Of a stretch of DNA of 64,000 nucleotides, positions 39,428-51,431 are shown piece after piece. Made by a program: the position numbers and the translations under genes. How positions within the stretch are numbered: the stretch's first letter is position 1; every line of letters begins with the position of its first letter. Origin of the DNA: Tistrella mobilis. GTDB taxonomy: Bacteria; Pseudomonadota; Alphaproteobacteria; Tistrellales; Tistrellaceae. The notes beneath the pieces are model-generated. The model had not been told where the DNA came from and made no database searches. It was given only the letters and a program-made list of their open reading frames with translations. The DNA lies in contig NZ_CP121017.1 in NCBI RefSeq assembly GCF_041468085.1, positions 2,731,676 through 2,795,675 of the forward strand, read 5' to 3'.

Positions 39428-40234
39428 TCAGATGAACAGCTTGCGCAGCCAGCCCGAGATCACGTCGATCAGGCTGACCATGATGATGATCATGATCATG
39501 ACCGCACAGGTCTCGGCGAAATAGAAACCGCGGATCGCTTCCCACAGCACCACGCCGATGCCGCCGGCACCGACCATGCCGACCACGGTGGCCGAGCGGA
39601 CATTGCTCTCGAAACGATAGAGCGAATACGACACCCAGAGCGGCAGAACCTGCGGGATCACGCCGTAGATCACCTCGGCCAGCGGCCCGGCGCCGGTGGC
39701 ACGGATGCCTTCCACCGGGCGCGGATCGATCGCCTCAACCGCTTCCGAGAACAGCTTGGCCAGCACGCCGGTGGTGTGGACGAACAGCGCCAGCACGCCC
39801 GCGAAGGGGCCAAGGCCCACCGCCACCACGAACAGCATGGCGAAGACCATCTCGTTGATGGCGCGCAGCGCATCCATCATCCGCCGCACCGGCTGCACCA
39901 CCCAGACCGGCGCCACATTCGACGACGACAGAATGCCGAAGGGGATGGCGAAGACGATGGCCAGCACCGTGCCCCAGAGCGCCAGCTGAATGGTCACCAG
40001 CAGCTCGTCCAGATAGAAGCGCCACTGGTGGAAATCCGGCGGAAAGAATTCGGCGCCGAAGACGCCCATATTGCCGGCATCGCGGAACAGGTCGAGCGGC
40101 CGCATCTCGGCGCCTTCCCACGACCAGACCAGCACGGCGGCGAGCAGGCCATAGGTGACGTAGCGCAGCAGCGATCCCTTGAGATCGCGCGGCGGCGTGA
40201 TGCCGGGCGTGCGGGGCTGGGCAAGATCGGTCAT
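39428..40234 (-). CDS. phnE: Phosphonate ABC transporter permease PhnE
   Basis: 268 residues, about six membrane helices, in the BPD_transp_1 fold. The EAA-type loop that docks to the ATPase is seen as [20 protein letters not shown] (about 160-180). It brings phosphonates, or related phosphite/phosphate esters, across the inner membrane with PhnC and PhnD. The ATG at 40234 excludes upstream codons of low-conservation composition. Third gene of the leftward phnCDE group. Confidence 0.92.
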
Positions 40235-40292
40235 GGCGGCCGGAACTTTCAGAGAAAACGACGTCGATGGTCGAAACTGGTCTGACATGAAG

Positions 40293-40325
40293 AACGACCG
40301 GCGGCGCGGGGGGCCGCCGGTCGTT
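40293..40325 (-). repeat. Intercistronic hairpin between phnD and phnE
   Basis: A 13-base perfect stem, AACGACCGGCGGC (40293-40305) with GCCGCCGGTCGTT (40313-40325), loop 7 bases, just after the phnD stop. On the minus strand it is followed by CTTCATG rather than a T run, so it is more likely an mRNA stabiliser or weak attenuator that keeps binding protein made in excess over permease. Confidence 0.65.
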
Positions 40326-40338
40326 TCAGGCAGATGGA

Positions 40339-41373
40339 TCACGAGGCCTTGGCGGCCTTCTCGATCTCGGCGGCGCGCTTGTTCAGCGCGTCGAGCTGGG
40401 CGTCGATCTCGGCGATCTTCTTCGCCTTCTCGTCGGCCGCCATGTTCGCATCGGCTTCGAGCTTCGCCTTGGAGCGGAACAGCTCAAGCTGACGGATGGG
40501 GATCAGCTGGTCGTTGCTGCTCTTGCGGAACGGCGCCCAGGTCAGGCCCTGCAGAACCGCCTTCTCCTTCTCGACCTCGGGGCCCTCGACACCATAGGTC
40601 AGGAAGAAGCTGGCGATCTTCTCCTTCGCCTCGGCCGGGAGGCTGGTGCGCCACACGATCGGGTCCGACGGGATCAGCGGCGACTTCCAGATCACCTTGA
40701 TCTGCTTGGCCTTCTCGGGGAAGGTCTTCTCAAGGCGGGCCAGGTTCTCGGTGTTGTTGGTCGCGACGTCGACCTGGCCGTTGGCAACCGCCAGCGCGTT
40801 GGTCTCGTGGTTCGCGGCAAGGGTCCGCTTGAAGGCGGTCTTGGCGTCGACATTGTTCTGGGCGAAGACGTAGTAGCTCGGCACCAGGAAGCCCGAGGTC
40901 GAGTTGGGATCGCCGTTGCTGAAGGTCAGATCCTTGGCCTTGGCCAGCACGTCCTGAACCGAGTTCAGGTCGGTGCGGTCGGCCTGGGTGATCAGCAGCG
41001 ACCAGTAGCCCGGCGAACCGTCGACCGCCACGGTCTGGGCGAAGATCTCGCCACCGGCACGGTCCACCGCTTCCATGGCCGACTTGTTGCCGTACCAGGC
41101 GACGTCGACCTTGTCGAAGCGCATGCCCTGGATGATGCCGGCATAGTCGGGGGCGAAGAAGGCCTTCACCTCGACGCCCAGCTTGCGCGACATGTCGGCC
41201 AGGAACGGATCCCACATGGTCTTCAGGTTCTGGGTCGACTCGGTCGAGATGATGCCGAAGTTGATCTCCTTCATCGAGGTGATCTTCATGTCTTCGGCAG
41301 CGGCGGCCGGCAGGGCCGAACCGACGGCGATGGCGGCCGCCACGGCCACCTGGGTCAGACGCTTCAGGAACAT
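40339..41373 (-). CDS. phnD: Phosphonate ABC transporter substrate-binding protein PhnD
   Basis: 344 residues. Signal peptide (about 1-26, ending PAAAAED). The PhnD-type binding fold shows [33 protein letters not shown] and the [13 protein letters not shown] segment that binds the phosphonate group. The C-terminal 45 residues are Lys/Glu/Ala-rich helical ([23 protein letters not shown]), longer than usual. Start taken at ATG 41373, which has GGAAGG at 10 bases; in-frame ATGs at 41382 and 41391 are poorer. Confidence 0.93.
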
Positions 41374-41439
41374 GGGGTGCATGCCTTCCATGGGGCGTGG
41401 GATGCGTGAGGCGGAAGCGTTGGAGAGGCGGGCGCTGCG

Positions 41440-42288
41440 TCAGACCGCCAGCGCCTGCCCCGCAGACACGGCAGCCGGCGCGGCGCGATCGCGCACGGGC
41501 AGGCCGATATCCTCGATCTCGGTCCCGTAGAGACGGGCGAGCATGTCATTGGTGAGCGCGGCCGACGGGCCGTCATAGACCAGCTTGCCCCGGGCCAGCG
41601 CGATGACCCGCGAGCAGTAGCGGAGCGCGTATTCGACCTGATGCAGCGACACGACGACCGTGGTGCCGTCCTCGGCATTGATCCGGGCCAGCGTGTCCAT
41701 CACCCGCCGGGCACTTTCCGGATCGAGCGAGGCGATCGGCTCGTCGGCCATGATCACCTCGGCCTGCTGGACCAGCGCGCGGGCGATCGCGGCGCGCTGC
41801 TGCTGGCCGCCCGACAGCGTCGAGGCACGGCGATGGGCCCATTCGGCGATGCCCACCCGCTCCAGCGCCGCAAGCGCCCGCATGCGGTCGTCGCGGCGGA
41901 AGCGGCCGGTGAGCACCCGCCAGAGCGGCAGATTGCCCAGCGTGCCGGTCAGCACATTGGTGATCACCGTCAGCCGGCCGACCAGGTTGAACTGCTGGAA
42001 GACCACGCCGATCCGGGCGCGGCGCCGGCGGATGTCGCGGGCGATACGGCCATTCTTCTGCACCGTGCCGCCCAGCATGCGGATCTCGCCGCCATCCGTC
42101 CGGTCGGAGGCGATCAGCCCCGAAAGATGGCGCATCAGCGTCGACTTGCCGGAGCCGGAGGCACCGATCAGGGCCACCATCTCGCCACGGGCGACCTGAA
42201 AGCTCACGCTGTCCAGCGCGCGATGGCCGCGGAAAGTCTTGGTCAGGCGCGCCACCTCGATGGCGGGTGCGCTGGCGCTGTCGGTCAT
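41440..42288 (-). CDS. phnC: Phosphonate ABC transporter ATP-binding protein PhnC
   Basis: 282 residues. Walker A GASGSGKS (42-49), Q-loop VVFQQFNL, signature LSGGQQQR (158-165), Walker B VIMADEP (about 178-184) with LDPES, and switch His in [10 protein letters not shown]. It energises PhnDE. The ATG at 42288 is the first that gives a standard PhnC length. First gene of phnCDE; the promoter must lie in the 335-base divergent gap facing the DUF1045 gene. Confidence 0.94.
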
Positions 42289-42623
42289 CGCCGGTCGGTC
42301 CTTCCGAATGTCCTGCATCAGGGGGCAATGTCGTCCCGCCGGGGGTGTCCCCGTCGGGTACATCCCGGTCGGGCAGGCCGTGCGGGCGGGATCACCTGCG
42401 GCCGTACCCCGGGCGGCCACATTGCGCGGCCCGTCGGCTATCTGATTAGCCGGCTTCGATGACGTTTCGGTGACGGAGCGGTAAAGCATTGATGAAGGGC
42501 CGCCCCCATGGCATCACGGAGCGGCCGGAGGGCCCTGCCCCCTAGACAAATCCTTGATACACATCCGTAATTCCGGATCTTTCCGGGTGGATGTCGCCCC
42601 GTGGTCATCAGGAGATCCGCCCC
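42289..42623. other. Divergent region between phnC and the DUF1045 gene
   Basis: 335 bases without a credible gene. It carries a direct-repeat-like GTCGGGTACATCCCGGTCGGG stretch near the phnC side and, near the DUF1045 side, a box resembling the operator between phnG and phnF (listed separately). Both transcripts should start here, consistent with phosphonate control. Confidence 0.6.
42554..42594 (+). promoter_or_regulatory. Candidate PhnF-type operator upstream of DUF1045 gene
   Basis: TTGATACACATCCGTA (42554-42569) matches TTGTATAGACATCCGTA in the phnG/phnF gap with one gap and one change. It also forms half of an inverted repeat ACATCC (42561-42566) with GGATGT (42589-42594). It lies about 55 bases before the DUF1045 start. 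Confidence 0.5.
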
Positions 42624-43337
42624 ATGCCGGTACCGTACCGTGCCGCCCTTTATGTCATGCCCGGTGCCTCGGATCCGCTCGGCGCCTTCGGAGCGGCCTG
42701 GCTGGGCCGCACGGCGGACGGCGCCCCCCTGCCCCCCCGTCCGGTGGAGCCGGCGGGCTGGTCCGCCGCTGCGCTGGATGTCGTAACGGCCGAGCCGCGG
42801 CGCTACGGCTTTCATGCCACCCTGCGCGCGCCTTTCCGCCCGGCAGACGGCGTCGATCTGGACATGATCGAGGCACGGGCAGCGGATCTGGCCGCGGCCC
42901 TGCCCCCTGTGGTGATCACGCAGGGGCTGCAGCTGCGCCGGATCGCGCATTTCCTGGCGCTGGTCCCGGCCGTGCGCTCAGAGGCCCTGCAGAATTTCGC
43001 CGCCCGGATCGTGGAGGGGACCAATGATCTGCGCCGGCCGCTTGATGCGGACGACCGCGCAAAACGGCTGGCCAAGAGCCGCCTGACCCCGCGGCAGATC
43101 GAGCTGATGGACCGCTGGGGCTATCCCCATGTGCTGGAAGATTTCCGCTTCCACATGACCCTGACCGGACGGCTGCCCGAAGACGAGCCGGCCGTCGGCC
43201 GGCTCTTCGACGCCCTGGCCGGTGCCACCGCGGGTTTCGCCGGCCGACCCTTCATCATCGATGCCATCGCGGTCGCGGTTGAGTTCGAGCCGGGCGCGCC
43301 CTTCATTTGCCACCGCCGCTTCGCGCTCAGCGGTTGA
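42624..43337 (+). CDS. DUF1045 family protein, 2H-phosphoesterase-like, phosphonate-associated
   Basis: 237 residues. AGGAG (42610-42614) precedes the ATG. Two HxT motifs, His 64-Ala-Thr 66 (RYGFHATLRAPF) and His 177-Met-Thr 179 (FRFHMTLTGRL), are the hallmark of the 2H phosphoesterase superfamily, which handles cyclic phosphates and 2',5' bonds. DUF1045 genes recur in phosphonate clusters. This cluster has no phnP, whose product opens the cyclic phosphate made by C-P lyase; this protein is a candidate substitute. That role is inference. Confidence 0.85.
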   Translation: MPVPYRAALYVMPGASDPLGAFGAAWLGRTADGAPLPPRPVEPAGWSAAALDVVTAEPRRYGFHATLRAPFRPADGVDLDMIEARAADLAAALPPVVITQGLQLRRIAHFLALVPAVRSEALQNFAARIVEGTNDLRRPLDADDRAKRLAKSRLTPRQIELMDRWGYPHVLEDFRFHMTLTGRLPEDEPAVGRLFDALAGATAGFAGRPFIIDAIAVAVEFEPGAPFICHRRFALSG

Positions 43338-43427: not shown

Positions 43428-44003
43428 ATGAAGGGCAAGGTCATCGGCTTCGACAGCCGGACGGGCACGGGCGCCATCGAGGGCGAAGACGGCCTGCGCT
43501 ATGAATTCTCGGGCACCGAATGGCGGAGCGTCATCCGCCCCGAGGCCGGTGTGCTGGTCGATTTCAATCCCGAGGGCCACCTGGCCCAGGCGATCTTTCC
43601 GATTCAGGCGCCGGCCACCGCACGGGGCGGTGACGACTTCTCGTGGTGGGCGTTCTATGTCTCGTTCCGCGGCCGCACCACCCGCAAGCCCTATTGGCTG
43701 TATCTGATTCTGCCGGTCTTCGTGATCAGCATCCTGCTGACCCTGCTGGATGTGGGCCTCGGCACCTATGATGCCGAAACCGGGGGCGGGTTGTTCAGCG
43801 GCCTGTTCTCTCTGGTCGCGATCTGGCCCAGCCTCGCGATCGGCGCCCGGCGCTGCCATGATCGCGGCCGCAGCGGCTGGTTTCAGCTGATCATGCTGAT
43901 CCCGCTGATCGGCTGGATCTGGCTGCTGGTCGAAATCGGCTTCCTGCGCGGCACCCGCGGGCCGAACCGGTTTGGCCCGGACCCGCTGGAAGGCCGCGCC
44001 TGA
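43428..44003 (+). CDS. DUF805 membrane protein with N-terminal beta-barrel-like domain
   Basis: 191 residues. Residues 1-60 resemble a cold-shock/OB-like domain (GKVIGFDSRTGTGAIEGEDGLRYEF). The rest is DUF805: SWWAFYVSFRGRTTRKPYWLY, three to four membrane helices, and ARRCHDRGRSGWFQL before the last helix pair. Function is unknown. AAGGCAG stands about 9 bases before the ATG. It lies between the DUF1045 gene and phnN, converging with the phn operon (6 bases apart), and looks unrelated to phosphonate use. Confidence 0.85.
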   Translation: MKGKVIGFDSRTGTGAIEGEDGLRYEFSGTEWRSVIRPEAGVLVDFNPEGHLAQAIFPIQAPATARGGDDFSWWAFYVSFRGRTTRKPYWLYLILPVFVISILLTLLDVGLGTYDAETGGGLFSGLFSLVAIWPSLAIGARRCHDRGRSGWFQLIMLIPLIGWIWLLVEIGFLRGTRGPNRFGPDPLEGRA

Positions 44004-44009
44004 GCGGCT

Positions 44010-44582
44010 TTACCCGCCGATCGCGCGGATGAAGGCGGCCACCGCATCTTCCAGCGTGCCGCCATTGTCGACCACCACCACATCGGGCCCGGAAGGCATG
44101 TCCGCCCGGGCCCGGGCCAGGCGGCGCCGGATGTCCTCCGGCGTCTCCCGGCCGCGGGCGGCCAGCCGTTCGGCCAGCACCGCATCGGGGGCATCGACCA
44201 CCACGATCCTGACCGGCGCCGCCCGCTGCCGGGCAGCGTCCAGCACCGCGCGCGACACATTGGCGACCACCGTCAGACCGTCGCGCCGCGCCGCCGTAAC
44301 CGTCGCCGGAATGCCGTAGCAAAGGCCGTGGGCCTGCCAGTGCAGCAGGAAGTCGCCCGCTACCGCCCGGACCTCAAAACCGGCGGCGGTCTCGGGCTCG
44401 TGATCCTCGCCCCCGGCATCGGCCGGCCGTGTGATCACCCGCCGGGCGAAGAGATGGCGGCCGCGCGGGGCCAGTTCGGCCCGCGCGCGCTCCATCAGCG
44501 TATCTTTCCCCGCCCCAGACGGCCCCACCACCAGGCAGAGCAGACCGCAGGCGCCGGTCCCGGCCGCTGCCGCATCGGCCAT
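44010..44582 (-). CDS. phnN: Ribose 1,5-bisphosphokinase PhnN
   Basis: 190 residues, guanylate-kinase-like fold. Walker A GPSGAGKD (20-27), then RRVITRP and the HWQAHGLCYGIP block. It phosphorylates ribose 1,5-bisphosphate to PRPP, the last step that returns the C-P lyase sugar moiety to metabolism. It follows phnM by 2 bases and is the final gene of the leftward operon. Confidence 0.92.
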   Translation of the reverse strand: MADAAAAGTGACGLLCLVVGPSGAGKDTLMERARAELAPRGRHLFARRVITRPADAGGEDHEPETAAGFEVRAVAGDFLLHWQAHGLCYGIPATVTAARRDGLTVVANVSRAVLDAARQRAAPVRIVVVDAPDAVLAERLAARGRETPEDIRRRLARARADMPSGPDVVVVDNGGTLEDAVAAFIRAIGG

Positions 44583-44584
44583 GA

Positions 44585-45724
44585 TCAGAGCACCTGCCGG
44601 CCGCGGCGCCAGACGTTCCGGATCAGCGGCACATGACCGTCGACCACCGAGAAGCGCACAAGATCCGCCTGCGCGCCGGCCGCGATCCGGCCGCGATCTT
44701 CCAGCCCGACCGCACGCGCCGGAATGTCGGTGACGGTGCGGATCGCGGCCGGAAGGCCGGCCACATCCGCCAGCATCACCGCCGCATGCAGCAGGCTGGC
44801 CGGAACATAGTCCGAGGACAGCACGTCGAGCAGCCCGGCCTTGGCGAGTGTTCCCGCCGAGACATTGCCGGAATGAGAGCCGCCCCGCACCAGATTGGGC
44901 GCCCCCATCAGCACCGCCATGCCGGCCGCCTTCGAGGCGCGCGCCGCCTCGATCGTGGTCGGGAACTCGGCCACCGAGCAGCCGTCGGCCTCGGCTTCGG
45001 CGACATGTTCTGCCGTCGCGTCGTCGTGAGAGGCCAGCGCATAGCCGCGCGTCCGCGCCTGCTCCACAACATAAGCGCGGTTGGCGGGGGCGTATTCCGC
45101 CTGCATGCGCTTCTGGTTGGCGATCATCTCTTCGATCTCGTCGGCACGCACGCCATGCTTGCCCATATAATATTCGCGGTACTTCGCCTCGTCGACGAAC
45201 TGCCGCTGGCCGGGGGTGTGGTCCATGATCGACAGCATGCCGGTCAGCGGATGGCCGACCAGCGGCTCGACCAGCGCCTGCATGCGTTCATGCGCGATCT
45301 CGCAGCGCAGATGCAGAAGATGGTCGACACGCAGCAGGTCGCGGGTTTTGGCATCGGCCACCGCATCGATCATGTCGGCCAGATCGCGCGCCCGGTTGCC
45401 CTGCTTCAGATCGCCGATGGTCACGGCGTCGAAGACCGTGGTGATGCCGGCCGCAGCCAGTTCCGCATCATGTGCCCGCACGGCCGGCAGCGACGGCCAG
45501 CGCACCCCCGGCCGCGGCGCGAAATGCCGTTCCAGGTTGTCGGTGTGCAGCTCCACCAGCCCCGGGATCAGATGATCGCCCTCAAGGTCGATCGCGCCCG
45601 GCACCGAAGACACCCCCTCGGCCAGCTCGGCGATGCGGCCTTCCGCGACCACCACGGTCGCCCGCGGCAGCACGGTCTCGGGCGTCACCACCCGGGCATT
45701 GGTCAGGATGGTCTGGGTGGTCAT
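44585..45724 (-). CDS. phnM: Alpha-D-ribose 1-methylphosphonate 5-triphosphate diphosphatase PhnM
   Basis: 379 residues, amidohydrolase superfamily. Metal site pieces: GLVELHTDNLERHF (about 55-68), DHTPGQRQF (about 167), ASHDDATAEH and APNLVRGGSHSGN. It removes pyrophosphate from the ribose methylphosphonate triphosphate made by PhnGHIL. ATG at 45724 overlaps the phnL stop (ATGA), so the frame extending further upstream is not real coding. Length matches E. coli PhnM. Confidence 0.94.
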   Translation of the reverse strand: MTTQTILTNARVVTPETVLPRATVVVAEGRIAELAEGVSSVPGAIDLEGDHLIPGLVELHTDNLERHFAPRPGVRWPSLPAVRAHDAELAAAGITTVFDAVTIGDLKQGNRARDLADMIDAVADAKTRDLLRVDHLLHLRCEIAHERMQALVEPLVGHPLTGMLSIMDHTPGQRQFVDEAKYREYYMGKHGVRADEIEEMIANQKRMQAEYAPANRAYVVEQARTRGYALASHDDATAEHVAEAEADGCSVAEFPTTIEAARASKAAGMAVLMGAPNLVRGGSHSGNVSAGTLAKAGLLDVLSSDYVPASLLHAAVMLADVAGLPAAIRTVTDIPARAVGLEDRGRIAAGAQADLVRFSVVDGHVPLIRNVWRRGRQVL

Positions 45725-46470
45725 GCTGCGGCTCCGGCGGGGGTGAGGGGCAGAAGGCGGGTCGCGAGGCGGTCGCGCACCGCCCGGTCGTGGAAGATGG
45801 CGACGATCGCCGCACCGTTGTTGCGGGCGGCTTCGATCAGCCCGCAGGCGGCATCGACATTGCCGGCATCGAGAGAGGCGGTCGGCTCGTCCAGCAGCAG
45901 CACCGGATGGCCGGCGGCCAGGCCGCGGGCGATGTTGACCCGCTGCTGCTCGCCACCCGAGAAGGTGGCCGGCGGCAGCGACCACAGCCGCTCCGGCAGG
46001 TTGAGCGCGGTCAGCAGTTCGGCCGCGCGCGCCTCTGCCTCGGCCGCCCCTGCCCCGCGCCGGCGCAGCGGCTCGGCGACGATGCGGAGCGTGGCGACAC
46101 GCGGGATCACCCGCAGGAACTGGCTGACATAGCCCATGGTCCGGCGGCGGACATCCAGCACCTCGCGCGGCTCGGCCGTGCACATGTCGACCACATCTGC
46201 GCCATGGCGGACCAGAACCCGGCCCTGATCGGCCAGATAATTGGCGTAAAGGGTCTTGAGCAGGGTGCTCTTGCCGGTACCGGAGGGGCCGTCCAGCACC
46301 ACGCATTCGCCGGGGGCCACCTCCAGATCGACCCGGTCGAGCACCGGCAGCCGCACGCCGCCCTGGGTGTGGAGCACGAAGGTCTTGGAGATGCCTTCGG
46401 CCTTGAGCCGCCAGCCTTCGGGCACCGGCATCGCCGCCCGGGCGGGATCTTGCGTCATCGGGGTCACCAT
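45721..46470 (-). CDS. phnL: C-P lyase system ATP-binding protein PhnL
   Basis: 249 residues, ABC-type ATPase. Walker A GPSGTGKS (61-68), signature FSGGEQQRVNIARG, Walker B LLLDEPTASLD. PhnL is needed with PhnG, PhnH and PhnI to attach the phosphonate to ATP-derived ribose. Start shown is ATG 46470, 4 bases after phnK; ATG 46458 is an alternative with a GGTGA upstream. Overlaps phnM by 4 bases. Confidence 0.92.
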   Translation of the reverse strand: MVTPMTQDPARAAMPVPEGWRLKAEGISKTFVLHTQGGVRLPVLDRVDLEVAPGECVVLDGPSGTGKSTLLKTLYANYLADQGRVLVRHGADVVDMCTAEPREVLDVRRRTMGYVSQFLRVIPRVATLRIVAEPLRRRGAGAAEAEARAAELLTALNLPERLWSLPPATFSGGEQQRVNIARGLAAGHPVLLLDEPTASLDAGNVDAACGLIEAARNNGAAIVAIFHDRAVRDRLATRLLPLTPAGAAA

Positions 46471-46474
46471 CGGA

Positions 46475-47284
46475 TCAGACCTGGAGCACGGAAGAGACGA
46501 GCAACTGGGTATAGGGGTGCTGCGGATCGTCGAGAATCTGGTCGGTCAGCCCCTGTTCGACCACGCGGCCGCGGCGCATCACCATCAGCCGGTCGGCCAG
46601 CAGGCGGGCGACCGCCAGGTCGTGGGTGACGATCAGCACCGACAGGCCCAGATCCTCGTTCAGTTCGCGGATCAGGTCGAGCAGCCGCGCCTGCACCGAG
46701 ACGTCGAGCCCGCCGGTCGGCTCGTCCATGAACACCAGCCTGGGGCCGATCACCAGATTGCGGGCGATCTGCAGGCGTTGCTGCATGCCGCCGGAAAAGG
46801 TGCGCGGCAGGTCGTCGATCCGCCCGCCATCGATTTCAACCCGTCCAAGCCAGTCGAGCGCCCGGTCGCGGATCCGGCCGTAATGCCGGGCGCCCGTCGC
46901 CATCAGCGGCTCACCCACATTGGCGCCGGCAGAAACATCCAGCCGCAGCCCGTCGCGCGGATTCTGATGAACGATGCCCCATTCCTCGCGGGCCAGCCGC
47001 CGGCGTTCGGCCTCGCCCATGGTCACCACATCATGGGTGGTGCCGGCGCGGTCGGTGTAAAGCGCCTGTCCGCCATCGGCCTCGATCCGGCCCGACAACA
47101 TGCCGAGCAGGGTGGTCTTGCCCGACCCGCTCTCGCCCACGATGCCCAGCACCTCTCCCGGCCACATCCGGAACGAGACGTCGGTGCAGGCGATGGCGGC
47201 GCCGTAGCGCTTCTCCAGCCCCTCCACCGCCAGCAGCGGCCGGGCGGGGGACAGCGTCTCTGCGGTTTTCGCGATCGCGTTCAT
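46475..47284 (-). CDS. phnK: C-P lyase system ATP-binding protein PhnK
   Basis: 269 residues, ABC-type ATPase closest to the oligopeptide-transporter ATPases. Walker A GESGSGKT (50-57), signature FSGGMQQRLQIARN, Walker B LVFMDEPTGGLD, switch VTHDLAVARLLADR. PhnK docks on the PhnJ subunit of the core complex and drives turnover. Four-base overlap with phnJ (ATGA). Confidence 0.93.
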   Translation of the reverse strand: MNAIAKTAETLSPARPLLAVEGLEKRYGAAIACTDVSFRMWPGEVLGIVGESGSGKTTLLGMLSGRIEADGGQALYTDRAGTTHDVVTMGEAERRRLAREEWGIVHQNPRDGLRLDVSAGANVGEPLMATGARHYGRIRDRALDWLGRVEIDGGRIDDLPRTFSGGMQQRLQIARNLVIGPRLVFMDEPTGGLDVSVQARLLDLIRELNEDLGLSVLIVTHDLAVARLLADRLMVMRRGRVVEQGLTDQILDDPQHPYTQLLVSSVLQV

Positions 47285-48219
47285 CGCGCACCCTCCTCGC
47301 CCGGGTGAAGCGGGGCATCCATGCCCGGCCCCTCATGGCCGGCCTCGCGCCGGCTGGTGCAGTGATCGGTGTCGGAGCAGACGAAGATCCGACCGCCCCT
47401 GTCGTCGACGATCACCTCGTCCAGATAGCTGTCGGTGGCACCGCACAGTGCGCAGGGCCGGTCCCAGCCTTCCACGTCGAAGGGATGATCCTCGAAATCC
47501 AGGCTGCGCACGGTGGTATGGGGCGGGATCGCATAGATCCGCTTCTCGCGTCCTGCACCGAAAAGCTGCAGGAATGGCGCATCGTCCAGCTTGGGGTTGT
47601 CGAATTTCGGGATGGGCGACGGCCGCGCCAGATGGCGGCCCGCCACCATCACCGGATAGTCATAGGTGGTGGCGATGCGGCCGTGGCGGGCGATATCCTC
47701 ATAGAGCTTCACATGCATCGCACCGTATTCGGCCAGCGCATGCATGCGCCGGGTCTCGGTCTCGCGCGGCTCCAGCCAGCGCAGCGGCTCCGGAATCGGT
47801 ACCTGATAGACCAGGATCTGGTCGTCGGTCAGCCGGGCCTCGGGCACGCGGTGGCGGGTCTGGATGATCGTCGCCTCGCGGGTCCGTTCGGTGGTCGCCA
47901 CACCGGCGGTGCGGGCGAAGAAGCGGCGGATCGAAACCGCGTTGGTGGTATCGTCCGCGCCCTGGTCGATGACCTTGAGCACGTCGTCCCGGCCCAGCAC
48001 GGCGGCGGTCACCTGAATGCCGCCGGTGCCCCAGCCATAGGGCAACGGCATTTCGCGGCTGGCGAAGGGCACCTGATAGCCGGGGATGGCGACGCCTTTC
48101 AGGATCGCCCGGCGGATCATCCGCTTGGTCTGTTCGTCAAGATAGGCGAAATTGTAGCCGTCGGTGCTGTCGCCATCGGCTTCGGCAGCAAGAACGGTCG
48201 TCGTCGCGGGGGAGGTCAT
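47281..48219 (-). CDS. phnJ: Carbon-phosphorus lyase PhnJ (radical SAM)
   Basis: 312 residues. The unusual radical-SAM centre is intact: Cys 256, 259, 281 and the catalytic Cys 287 have exactly the spacing of E. coli Cys 241, 244, 266 and 272. Gly 47 in AIPGYQVPF aligns with the radical-bearing Gly 32. It cleaves the C-P bond of ribose 1-methylphosphonate 5-phosphate, releasing methane (or other alkane) and cyclic ribose phosphate. N-terminus is about 15 residues longer than in E. coli. Sits within the PhnGHIJ core complex. Confidence 0.96.
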   Translation of the reverse strand: MTSPATTTVLAAEADGDSTDGYNFAYLDEQTKRMIRRAILKGVAIPGYQVPFASREMPLPYGWGTGGIQVTAAVLGRDDVLKVIDQGADDTTNAVSIRRFFARTAGVATTERTREATIIQTRHRVPEARLTDDQILVYQVPIPEPLRWLEPRETETRRMHALAEYGAMHVKLYEDIARHGRIATTYDYPVMVAGRHLARPSPIPKFDNPKLDDAPFLQLFGAGREKRIYAIPPHTTVRSLDFEDHPFDVEGWDRPCALCGATDSYLDEVIVDDRGGRIFVCSDTDHCTSRREAGHEGPGMDAPLHPGEEGAR

Positions 48220-49364
48220 TCTGCCGCGTCCCTGTCCTGGTCGTCAGCGTGCTGGTCGTCAGCGCCCTGGTCGTCGGCATTCCGGTGGTCGCCATGTGCG
48301 CGGCGCAGGCGGCGGACCATGTCGAGTTCCGACTGGAAGTCGACGTAATGCGGCAGCTTCAGATGCTGCACGAAGCCCGAGGCTTCGACATTGTCGGCAT
48401 GGTAGAGCACGAATTCCGGATCCTGCGCCGGGCCCATCACCGCCTCGCCCAGCTCGCCTGCGCGCATCGCCCGGTCGACCAGCGCCATGGCCATGGCCTT
48501 GCGCTCCACCTGGCCGAAACCCAGCCCATAGCCCCGGGTGAATTGCGGCGGCGCCGCAGCCGTGCCCCGGAACTGGTTGATCATCTGGCATTCCGTCAGT
48601 TCGATCTCGCCGATTTCGACCGCAAAACCCAGCTCTTCGGGAACCATCTCGACGGCGACCCTGCCGATGCGGATCTCGCCCGCGAAGGGGTGGCTGTTGG
48701 CATAGCCGCGCTGGGTCGAATAGCCGAGCGCCAGCAGGAAGCCCTCGTCGCCGCGGGCGAGGCTCTGGAGCCGGAGCGCCCGATCGGCCGGAAAGTCCAG
48801 CGGCTCGCGGGTGAGGTCGGGTACCGTCTCCTCGTCCTCGTCCGCAGCAGGCCGTTCACACTCGATCAGCCCTTCATGGTTCAGCAGATCGGTGACCCGC
48901 GGCATCGCATCGTCCAGCGGCTCGGCCAGCGGCAGAACCGGCTCGGGCACTATGCCGCCCTCAAGCAGGCCGAAATCCAGCAGGCGATGGGTATAGTCGA
49001 AAGTCGAGCCAAGCACCTGGCCGCCCGGCAGATCCTTGAAGGTCGCCGAGATGCGCCGGCGGATGGCCATGCGCGCGGTATCGACCGGTTCCGTCGCGCC
49101 GAAGCGCGGCAGGGTGGTGCGATAGGCCCTCAGCAGGAAGATCGCCTCGACCAGGTCGCCCTGGGCCTGTTTGATGGCGAGCCCGGCGAGTTCGGGATCA
49201 TAGACCGAGCCTTCGGTCATCACCCGGTCGACCGCCCGGCCCAGCTGGCCGGTGATCTGGTCGACGCCAAGCTCCGCAACCTGCGGGTCGCCGCGGCGGT
49301 CTTCCGCCAGCAGCCGGTGGGCATTGGCGATGGCCGCCTCGCCGCCCTTGACCGCAACATACAT
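48216..49364 (-). CDS. phnI: C-P lyase core subunit PhnI, with repeated C-terminal tail
   Basis: 382 residues; start MYVAVKGGEAAI is canonical. Conserved blocks include SVYDPELAGLAIKQAQGDLVEA, LGYSTQRGYANSHPFAGEIR, and LTECQMINQFRG. PhnI is the nucleosidase-like subunit that, with PhnG, H and L, joins phosphonate to ribose from ATP. The last 25 or so residues (NADDQGADDQHADDQDRD) are a tandem-repeat extension beyond the usual end and are expected to be disordered. Overlaps phnJ by 4 bases. Confidence 0.94.
   Translation of the reverse strand: MYVAVKGGEAAIANAHRLLAEDRRGDPQVAELGVDQITGQLGRAVDRVMTEGSVYDPELAGLAIKQAQGDLVEAIFLLRAYRTTLPRFGATEPVDTARMAIRRRISATFKDLPGGQVLGSTFDYTHRLLDFGLLEGGIVPEPVLPLAEPLDDAMPRVTDLLNHEGLIECERPAADEDEETVPDLTREPLDFPADRALRLQSLARGDEGFLLALGYSTQRGYANSHPFAGEIRIGRVAVEMVPEELGFAVEIGEIELTECQMINQFRGTAAAPPQFTRGYGLGFGQVERKAMAMALVDRAMRAGELGEAVMGPAQDPEFVLYHADNVEASGFVQHLKLPHYVDFQSELDMVRRLRRAHGDHRNADDQGADDQHADDQDRDAAE
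48237..48296. repeat. 15-base imperfect tandem repeat in the 3' end of phnI
   Basis: Four units of a CTGGTCGTCAGCGNN pattern (48237-48251, 48252-48266, 48267-48281, and a diverged one at 48282-48296). On the minus strand they encode repeated xADDQ units in the PhnI tail. The length of 15 preserves the frame, so copy-number changes would vary only the tail. Confidence 0.8.
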
Positions 49365-49368
49365 CGGA

Positions 49369-49995
49369 TCAGCCCTCCGGGGTGATGCGGGTGGTGCGCG
49401 GCAGGGCCGCCAGGCGATCGCCCGCCGTCAGCACGATGTCGAGCCCGCGGGGATAGAGCGGCGCCAGCGCCGCGCGGGCGGCAACGAAGCCCGCCGGCAA
49501 TCCGGTCACCGCCAGATGCGCCGCGCCATTGATGCCGGGGCCTTCCAGCCGCCAGCCTGTCGCGGGCTCGGCCGACAGCGTCTCGACCTCGATCACCAGC
49601 GTGGTGGAACGATCGGGATAGGCATCGGTGCCGAGCGCAAAACGATCGGGCGCCGGCATGGCCGCCGGATCGCCGATCACCGCAAAGGTCGCCTTGTCGG
49701 GTGCGATCGCAAGCGGGGCGCCGGTGTGGAAGCGCAGATACGGCAGGGCCGGGGCTGAAACCCGGTCGAGCCAGACGGGGGTGTCGTGATCGGCCAGCGC
49801 CAGCAGCACGGCGGCGGCGGCGCATGACAGCGGCCGGTCGAGCCCCGGCACCGCCGTCACCCGCCGGATGCGGCCGGGGCGCGCCATCGCGTCCAGCACC
49901 GCGCGGAAGGTGGTCTGGGCATCGCGGACCGGTTCGGGAAAGCCGGGAGCGAGGCTGGCGAGTGCGGCCGCCGGCCTCTCGGATATCGGGCTCAT
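49369..49995 (-). CDS. phnH: C-P lyase core subunit PhnH
   Basis: 208 residues from ATG 49995, chosen because GGGGAG lies 8 bases upstream; GTG 50004 and ATG 50001 are also in frame and overlap the phnG stop. PhnH hallmarks: QTTFRAVLDAMARPGRI near residue 30-46, LPYLRFHTGAPL, and GPGIN. Structural subunit of the PhnGHIJ complex, related to PLP-fold proteins but without a cofactor. Four bases before phnI. Confidence 0.92.
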   Translation of the reverse strand: MSPISERPAAALASLAPGFPEPVRDAQTTFRAVLDAMARPGRIRRVTAVPGLDRPLSCAAAAVLLALADHDTPVWLDRVSAPALPYLRFHTGAPLAIAPDKATFAVIGDPAAMPAPDRFALGTDAYPDRSTTLVIEVETLSAEPATGWRLEGPGINGAAHLAVTGLPAGFVAARAALAPLYPRGLDIVLTAGDRLAALPRTTRITPEG

Positions 49996-50000
49996 CTGCA

Positions 50001-50489
50001 TCACTCCCCGCGGACCATGGTGAAGAATTCCACCCGGCTCGCCGCCGCCTTGCGCGAGGCAAGGGCCCGGGCCTCGGCCTGTTCGGCCGCCAGCGGCTCC
50101 ACCAGATCGCGCATCAGCCGGGGGCCGTGGGCACTGGTCTGGAGCAGCGCGTCCAGAACCGCCACCAGTTCGGCCTTCACCCGGTCGCGGCCGGCGACAT
50201 AGCCGACCCCGGCCTCGCCATCCTTCAGCCGCACCACGGCGCGCGAGACGGTCATCTCGCCCAGATTGAACCGGGCCCCTGCCCCGCCCGCGCGGCCACG
50301 CACCATGGCGAGCCCTGTCTCCGGGCGGCGCAGGGCCACGGCCCCCGCCAGCACGCCGGCCCGGCCGCCGGGCAGATCATCCAGCGCCGCGTGCAACCGG
50401 GCGCGATCGGCCCGGGCCAGCACGGCCAGCCAGCGCCTGCGCGCCGCCTGATCCGCCGTGCCGCCGGCCGCTTCCGCCGTCATCGTCAT
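50001..50489 (-). CDS. phnG: C-P lyase core subunit PhnG
   Basis: 162 residues. The ATG at 50489 follows GGAAGGAA (spacing about 8). Typical PhnG pieces: RRRWLAVLARADRARL, GAGARFNLGEMTVSRAVVRL and GYVAGRDRVKAELVAVLDALLQ. First gene of the operon phnGHIJKLMN. Its leader contains the candidate PhnF operator. Confidence 0.92.
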   Translation of the reverse strand: MTMTAEAAGGTADQAARRRWLAVLARADRARLHAALDDLPGGRAGVLAGAVALRRPETGLAMVRGRAGGAGARFNLGEMTVSRAVVRLKDGEAGVGYVAGRDRVKAELVAVLDALLQTSAHGPRLMRDLVEPLAAEQAEARALASRKAAASRVEFFTMVRGE

Positions 50490-50663: not shown

Positions 50664-51431
50664 ATGGCCATCGACCGGGAACCGGGGGTGACGCTCTGGC
50701 GGCAGATCGAGCGGGTGCTCGCCGACGAGATCCAGCGCGGCATCATGACGCCCGGCGCGCAGCTCGCCACCGAACACCAGCTGGCGGAACGCTTCGGCGC
50801 CAACCGCCACACCGTCCGCCGGGCGATCCGCGAATTGAAGACCCGCGGGCTGATCCGGGTGGAACAGGGTCGCGGCACCTTCGTGCATGAAAACGTGATG
50901 GACTACGCCCTGGGGCCCCGCACCCGGTTCAGCGCCAATCTGAAAGCGCAGGAGCGGCGCCCCGCCGGCATGCTGCTGGAAGCGGCCGCCGTTGCCGCCA
51001 CCGGCCGCATCGCCGAGGGGCTGGGCGTCCCGGAAGGGGCGCCGCTGATCTATCTCACCACCCTCTCCTTCGCCGACAACGTGCCGGTCAGCCTGGGGCG
51101 GCATTACCTGGATTTCGAACGCTTCCGCGGCATCGACGAGGTGTTCCGCGAGACGCCCTCCATGACCCTCGCCCTCACCCGTTTCGACATCCACGACTAT
51201 ACCCGCGGCCGCACCCGCATCACCGCGCGCATGCCCTCCGCCGAAGAGGCCGGCCTGCTGCGCCAGCCGCCGAACCGGCCGGTGCTCAAGACGGAATACA
51301 TCGACGTCGATGTAAATGGCCGCCCCGTCCAGTACGGCATCACCCTGTTTGCCGGCGATCGGGTTCAGATCGTCACCGACCCGCGCCATCCGGACGCCGC
51401 AGACAGAACCGATGCATCGACATCGATGTAA
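50664..51431 (+). CDS. phnF: Phosphonate utilisation regulator PhnF (GntR/HutC family)
   Basis: 255 residues. N-terminal winged helix (about 8-76: LWRQIERVLADEIQRG ... LATEHQLAERFGANRHTVRRAIRELKTRGLIRVEQGRGTFV), then a UTRA effector-binding domain (about 95-240). AAGGGGGA precedes the ATG. Divergent from phnG across the operator, so it is expected to repress the lyase operon and itself. Effector is unknown. Confidence 0.92.
   Translation: MAIDREPGVTLWRQIERVLADEIQRGIMTPGAQLATEHQLAERFGANRHTVRRAIRELKTRGLIRVEQGRGTFVHENVMDYALGPRTRFSANLKAQERRPAGMLLEAAAVAATGRIAEGLGVPEGAPLIYLTTLSFADNVPVSLGRHYLDFERFRGIDEVFRETPSMTLALTRFDIHDYTRGRTRITARMPSAEEAGLLRQPPNRPVLKTEYIDVDVNGRPVQYGITLFAGDRVQIVTDPRHPDAADRTDASTSM

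Follow-up and report, generated by a model that had tools for sequence, protein, structure and literature searches.

A 2H-type protein in the place of PhnP has precedents among described C-P lyase clusters. In the C-P lyase pathway, ribosyl 1,5-bisphosphate is described as both the product of PhnP and the substrate of PhnN (PMC3463581). PhnP was counted in 27 of 54 operons, and rcsF in 16 that lack PhnP (cited in PMC10574752). An RcsF/DUF1045-type protein was proposed as a PhnP analogue in PMC3840354 and PMC8235418. According to the former, the 2H protein RcsF is likely to play the PhnP role, and a phnP-less Rhodobacteraceae fosmid that carries it enables Escherichia coli deleted for phnHIJKLMNOP to grow on methylphosphonate. 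In a relative the gene order is given as phnM, rcsF, phnNL (PMC5649143), and the Rhodobacteraceae loci among those that we listed have the order phnM, DUF1045, phnN, phnL; we infer from this matching gene slot that the RcsF of PMC3840354 is DUF1045. A table of the phosphate-stress proteome lists a DUF1045 protein with PhnI, PhnJ, PhnL and PhnM (PMC10132767). The idea of DUF1045 as a PhnP analogue, already in print, is probably right. Here we add a survey of 97 genomes, a PhnJ tree on which the alternatives need three changes, and two leads, namely DUF1045 genes in phnJ-less genomes and a metallophosphoesterase beside phnG.

We analysed a window of 64,000 nucleotides of the Tistrella mobilis genome. 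Family models matched each of the genes that the original prediction had placed there, phnF, phnGHIJKLMN and phnCDE:

39428..40342, minus strand: phnE, phosphonate ABC transporter permease, start uncertain (TIGR01097, 294.8 bits, over cut-off)
40339..41391, minus strand: phnD, phosphonate-binding protein (TIGR03431, 337.9 bits, over cut-off)
41440..42288, minus strand: phnC, transporter ATPase, diverging from DUF1045 (TIGR02315, 302.6 bits, over cut-off)
42624..43337, plus strand: DUF1045 (PF06299) 2H-type phosphoesterase of 237 aa, proposed PRcP phosphodiesterase, with HAT at 64-66 and HMT at 177-179
43428..44003, plus strand: DUF805 membrane protein gene (PF05656, 110.5 bits)
44010..44582, minus strand: phnN, ribose 1,5-bisphosphokinase, which would use the DUF1045 product (TIGR02322, 199.5 bits, over cut-off)
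44585..45724, minus strand: phnM, triphosphate diphosphatase, start inferred (TIGR02318, 471.5 bits, over cut-off)
45721..46470, minus strand: phnL (TIGR02324, 320.4 bits, over cut-off)
46475..47284, minus strand: phnK (TIGR02323, 378.8 bits, over cut-off)
47281..48219, minus strand: phnJ, C-P lyase, which makes PRcP (PF06007, 483.7 bits)
48216..49364, minus strand: phnI (PF05861, 547.5 bits)
49369..50004, minus strand: phnH (TIGR03292, 184.5 bits, over cut-off)
50001..50489, minus strand: phnG, start inferred (TIGR03293, 167.7 bits, over cut-off)
50664..51431, plus strand: phnF, regulator, start inferred (TIGR02325, 254 bits, over cut-off)

The genes thus follow each other as phnCDE, DUF1045, DUF805 and phnNMLKJIHG, phnF coming last, and this layout is repeated in two other genomes of the genus. 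DUF1045 is read in the opposite direction to phnC-E and phnN-G, outside the strand of the phn operon. Its start at 42624 is preceded by AGGAG, and alignment with same-genus genomes revealed a 1-nt length difference just upstream, which in two of them shifts the ATG at 42591 to another frame; we therefore favoured 42624. The start of phnC, whose reading frame is open from 42489, was placed at 42288 from the family match. The copy of DUF1045 in Tistrella mobilis NC_017956.1 is 89% identical to the window protein. A search with an E. coli-type Pho box pattern found no match near DUF1045 and two in the window (10057 and 13971), for a chance mean of 2.67. The DUF805 gene follows DUF1045 on the same strand, both running towards phnN, and we do not think that it is part of the pathway. 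It occupies the same position in three same-genus genomes, the first 70 residues of its product look cold-shock-domain-like by eye, and a DUF805 match is also found near phnN in a Roseibium locus (L122).

The window protein matched PF06299 (DUF1045) with 164.8 bits (E 2.1e-48; Pfam cut-off, 24.3). Its only NCBIfam match, TIGR03223 ("putative phosphonate metabolism protein," Phn_opern_protn), covered the full length with 213.2 bits, below the cut-off of 248.95, and we therefore filed the protein under PF06299. The other Pfam match, LigT_PEase, was weak (18.3 bits, below the cut-off of 23.3). No match to TIGR03307, the metallo-beta-lactamase-type PhnP model, was among its family matches, showing that it is not PhnP itself. 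Two HxT motifs, H64-A-T66 and H177-M-T179 as numbered from 42624, are present at exactly the residues that had been predicted. In a set of 148 distinct DUF1045 proteins, from which the weak members L081 and L101 were omitted, R6, Y61, H64, T66, P70, R137, Y167 and H177 never varied, and position 179 was T in 142, S in 4 and M in 2. The conservation of motif 1 is partly by construction, as the 80 named loci (among the matches listed) were fetched with a motif-1 pattern; motif 2 played no part in fetching. As judged from the sequences, a chance origin of the motifs is excluded.

The two proteins with Met at position 179 (L151 and L158, from Rhizobium sp. Root1334 and Rhizobiales isolate AFS078309) are similar lone copies with HMM instead of HMT in motif 2, a C-terminal extension and no phn neighbours; their activity is perhaps changed or lost. 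Among 86 DUF1045 ORFs (those of the loci listed plus six), one exceeded 300 aa (L127, 360 aa, start choice unsure). At G345:C103:104374-117931, DUF1045 is split into several pieces that are out of register with each other, next to two additional copies of phnJ. The pieces are apparently broken copies, and the same genome also has a whole one.

An AlphaFold model of DUF1045 (57 sequences; pLDDT 95.9, pTM 0.91) is predicted to have the duplicated 2H phosphoesterase fold. Using Foldseek and structural alignment, we identified as the closest folds YjcG (Z 14.8, rmsd 3.0 over 165), the Arabidopsis Appr>p cyclic phosphodiesterase 1JH6 (Z 13.9, rmsd 3.3 over 172) and LigT 5LDQ (Z 13.1). By sequence, no credible relative was found in the PDB (best E, 0.23). 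The fold indicates the kind of chemistry, not the substrate.

The absence of phnP, predicted from the window, extends to the whole Tistrella mobilis genome (6.3 Mb, 4 contigs), in which a profile search detected no PhnP (TIGR03307) over the family cut-off, the best match reaching 94.3 bits for a cut-off of 272.25. We then compared the distributions of the proteins in two overlapping genome samples, 192 of the class and 299 of the phylum, using the same family models. The class sample has PhnJ in 34 genomes, DUF1045 in 43 (42 over the cut-off) and PhnP over the cut-off in none of these 192 alphaproteobacteria. In the phylum sample, PhnJ, DUF1045 and PhnP were over the cut-off in 69, 62 and 16 genomes, respectively, G223 (PhnJ at 18.9 bits, below the cut-off) having been dropped from the PhnJ count. 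The 16 PhnP proteins scored 296 to 433 bits, and each is encoded 3.9 to 4.6 kb from phnJ. Pooling gave 97 genomes with PhnJ, of which 80 have DUF1045, 16 have PhnP, none has both, and one (G135) has neither; all 16 PhnP genomes have PhnJ. The co-occurrence check thus agreed with the proposed replacement, DUF1045 accompanying phnJ and never occurring with PhnP. We did not count the Fisher value for co-occurrence as evidence because the genomes are related.

On a quick tree of 62 PhnJ rows, a subset of the PhnJ proteins of the survey with G538 (phnJ present, no DUF1045 found, 69% complete) left unlabelled, three changes suffice to place the labels DUF1045, PhnP and third type. The mutual exclusion of PhnP and DUF1045 rests on few events, two or three ancient switches after which the genes were inherited together, and its instances are not very independent. 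The PhnJ proteins of Polaromonas, an uncultured beta proteobacterium, Gordonia and Curtobacterium fall among the alphaproteobacterial rows (supports of 80 to 96 in this quick tree), and the phn clusters with these transferred PhnJ proteins carry DUF1045. Such joint transfer, as suggested by the tree, helps by adding to the independence of the pattern.

The genes are also linked physically. DUF1045 is less than 10 kb from phnJ in 61 of the 80 PhnJ-positive genomes, and elsewhere or on another contig in 19, some of which are draft contigs. Among the 80 named loci listed, with flanks of up to 10 kb a side and short contigs counted, phnI or phnJ is present within the flanks in 57, actinobacterial loci included, phnM without phnI or phnJ in 18 (15 with phnN), and neither in five. 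A same-strand phnM is at most 60 bases from DUF1045 in 51 of 86 loci (80 among the matches listed plus six).

The motifs, the fold, the gene neighbourhood, the absence of PhnP and a distribution complementary to that of PhnP are established by comparison. We consider it very probable that the DUF1045 protein encoded at 42624-43337 is a 2H phosphoesterase standing in for PhnP. The original prediction of a non-homologous PhnP replacement is thus supported by PhnP absence, complementary distribution and the 2H fold, with the step itself predicted. The PhnJ product, 5-phosphoribosyl 1,2-cyclic phosphate (PRcP), would be the substrate of DUF1045, and H64 and H177, each followed two positions later by a Thr, would serve as the general base and acid for attack by water. 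Opening of the ring would free the 2-hydroxyl and leave the phosphate on C1, and PhnN would convert the product, alpha-ribose 1,5-bisphosphate, to PRPP. The catalysis of this step by DUF1045, the bond cut and the acid and base roles are all putative. Such 2H enzymes are described as leaving the phosphate on C1'' (PMC5283653); since the ring is of the same kind and PhnN needs ribosyl 1,5-bisphosphate, this regiochemistry fits the PRcP step. A literature search that covered part of the primary literature found no enzyme assay of any DUF1045 protein. Counted against this explanation are the small number of changes behind the exclusion of PhnP, the location of DUF1045 away from phnJ in 19 of 80 genomes, its presence in genomes without phnJ (below), the presence of phnJ with neither enzyme in G135, the sub-cut-off TIGR03223 score and the opposite strand.

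DUF1045 is not confined to phnJ genomes. It was found without PhnJ in 18, of which 14 are clear cases and four are weak (19 to 48 bits; G025, G098, G355 and G407). In four of the 14 clear cases phnM adjoins DUF1045, with phnN too in one. Pairs of phnM and DUF1045 away from the C-P lyase core genes were observed at L066, L068 (with phnN), L070, L073, L095 and L096, and four genomes of this set are without any PhnJ; such lone pairs may be what is left of phn clusters, or may form a module of their own. On a quick DUF1045 tree of 102 rows, from which the gene fragments of G184 C95, G345 C103 and G380 C44 were dropped, the 14 phnJ-less cases need 11 changes, at least five of them forced by supported branches, which argues that retention or separate use without phnJ arose several times.

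The order of G135, which appears to be SAR11-like, was sampled with 100 small genomes of 0.7 to 1.6 Mb, many of them incomplete, 50 in each of the families f26 and f121. In f26, DUF1045 is over the cut-off in 37 of 50 genomes and phnJ is present in three, two of these with DUF1045, leaving 35 of the 47 phnJ-less genomes with DUF1045. In f121, DUF1045 is over the cut-off in none of 50 (one at 19.4 bits), and phnJ is present in five. The f26 copies are divergent (31 to 57 bits). In the 13 that we inspected, the H and the T/S of motif 2 are always present. Motif 1 is intact in 11, and L203 and L206 each lack one of its residues. For 12 f26 genes, none from a phnJ genome, dN/dS had a median of 0.17 (range, 0.09 to 0.30; 66 pairs), pointing to purifying selection. 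The copy at L081:8960-9580, considered with the divergent f26 copies L197-L208, overlaps a gene that weakly matches a nucleoside-recognition (Gate) family.

Because DUF1045 is kept where no phnJ was found, replacement of PhnP may not be its whole role, and a wider one is possible. The protein might open ribose 1,2-cyclic phosphates in general, with C-P lyase as one user and a further task elsewhere in the cell. Its substrate there could be, for example, PRcP that arises spontaneously from PRPP, a route on which our literature search found no paper, or a different sugar cyclic phosphate. Both the scatter of the 14 clear phnJ-less cases on the tree and the frequency of DUF1045 in phnJ-less f26 genomes, under purifying selection in the twelve genes analysed, favour this possibility. 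However, PhnN is over the cut-off in only one of the 14, which weakens PRPP repair through PhnN as an explanation for the phnJ-less genomes, and the four cases next to phnM may be phn cluster remains. Furthermore, no neighbour theme was shared among 20 neighbours of 10 lone DUF1045 loci, except for NDUS4 by two same-genus copies. We thus regard a general opener as possible but rather unlikely; it is compatible with the replacement of PhnP. KptA and Appr>p as the source of a substrate in phnJ-less genomes were not supported: KptA (PF01885) was detected in six of the 192 alphaproteobacteria, none of them among the 10 class genomes with DUF1045 (two weak) but without PhnJ.

Two other readings would deprive DUF1045 of the PRcP step. 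The step might be performed by a PhnP-like metallo-hydrolase, with DUF1045 doing another job in the pathway. The best PhnP match of the genome, a full-length metallo-hydrolase gene that follows a tatD-like gene (tatD read by eye), makes this conceivable, and PhnP-like matches are found in 163 of the 192 alphaproteobacteria. They do not track phnJ, however, which is present in 34, and all are at most 102 bits; the tatD-adjacent protein fits NF038231 and PRK02113 better, yet it is below those cut-offs too. This alternative, which would also leave the mutual replacement of DUF1045 and PhnP without explanation, appears improbable. A published report that speaks against the general absence of phnP is PMC8774927, in which the name PhnPP also appears; there, all seven Marivita genomes are credited with phnP on the basis of KEGG, although a PhnP-like protein below the cut-off may be meant. 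Lastly, DUF1045 might be an RNA-type 2H enzyme, acting on 2',3'-cyclic or 2',5' ends and located near phn genes by accident, given that its fold neighbours include LigT and YjcG, titled RNA-ligase-like, and that some copies are not near phn genes. Accident would hardly produce linkage to phn genes in alpha- and betaproteobacteria and actinobacteria together with a distribution complementary to that of PhnP, and we give this idea very little credence.

G135, the genome with phnJ but neither DUF1045 nor PhnP, encodes a calcineurin-like metallophosphoesterase (PF00149, 41.5 bits) whose gene ends one base before the phnG start:

L076:6161-7015: calcineurin-like metallophosphoesterase beside phnG

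A search of the 100 genomes of the order (E up to 1e-10) recovered this protein from all five phnJ-positive f121 genomes but from none of the 95 others, and its gene adjoins phnG in each of the five (L076, L190, L193, L194 and L195). The genomes are close relatives, and the five occurrences therefore represent one event. A metallophosphoesterase is listed, with no role assigned to it, among the genes that are unique to SAR11 strain HTCC7211 and that, like phn genes, are over-represented at BATS (PMC3686209); it is presumably the f121 protein. On its gene position and occurrence, the metallophosphoesterase is a candidate for a third non-homologous PhnP replacement. No phnN was seen in the f121 stretches fetched, which makes a double action yielding ribose 5-phosphate conceivable. 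Another candidate, a TIM-barrel protein encoded near phnM, was rejected, as its distance varies, its orientation is opposite in f26, and it was not seen in L193. Speculatively, and with more doubt than conviction, DUF1045 could be a housekeeping enzyme for opening ribose 1,2-cyclic phosphates, still selected outside C-P lyase (in streamlined genomes such as those of f26 and in scattered phnJ-less alphaproteobacteria) and recruited into phn clusters; where it is absent, the metallophosphoesterase beside phnG would take the step, maybe directly to ribose 5-phosphate and phosphate.

Whether the phosphorus of phosphonates, as in methylphosphonate and glyphosate breakdown, enters metabolism depends on the step that follows C-P cleavage. 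Searches for phnP only would call clusters such as that of Tistrella incomplete or might mistake a PhnP-like paralogue for phnP; once DUF1045 is firmly assigned, the annotation of alphaproteobacterial genomes could be corrected. The retention of DUF1045 in the absence of phnJ would suggest that ordinary cells have a source of ribose cyclic phosphates that has gone unrecognised. Why phnJ-less bacteria keep DUF1045 is a more interesting question than the replacement of PhnP.

Compared with known systems, DUF1045 shares its proposed reaction, PRcP to ribose 1,5-bisphosphate, with PhnP of E. coli (TIGR03307), but the metallo-beta-lactamase fold of the latter and its chemistry are unrelated. PhnPP of Eggerthella, a member of the PHP family, is another non-homologous solution for PRcP; its fold differs from that of DUF1045, and it yields ribose 5-phosphate and phosphate. 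YjcG of Bacillus subtilis and LigT of E. coli have the 2H fold in common with DUF1045, but their substrates are other or unknown, and to our knowledge they have no link with phn genes. The Arabidopsis cyclic phosphodiesterase for Appr>p (1JH6, 1FSI), with which DUF1045 also shares the fold, acts on a ribose 1'',2''-cyclic phosphate; it is only 9% identical to DUF1045, and its substrate has ADP in place of the 5-phosphate. Closest are the RcsF/DUF1045 clusters, fosmid B3_TF_MPn_2 (PMC3840354) and the Sinorhizobium meliloti-like clusters of Aminobacter (PMC8235418), described as likewise having a 2H protein, proposed as a cyclic phosphodiesterase, and no phnP. Unlike in those clusters, the Tistrella gene has an orientation opposite to that of phnC-E and phnN-G, and its product scores below the TIGR03223 cut-off.
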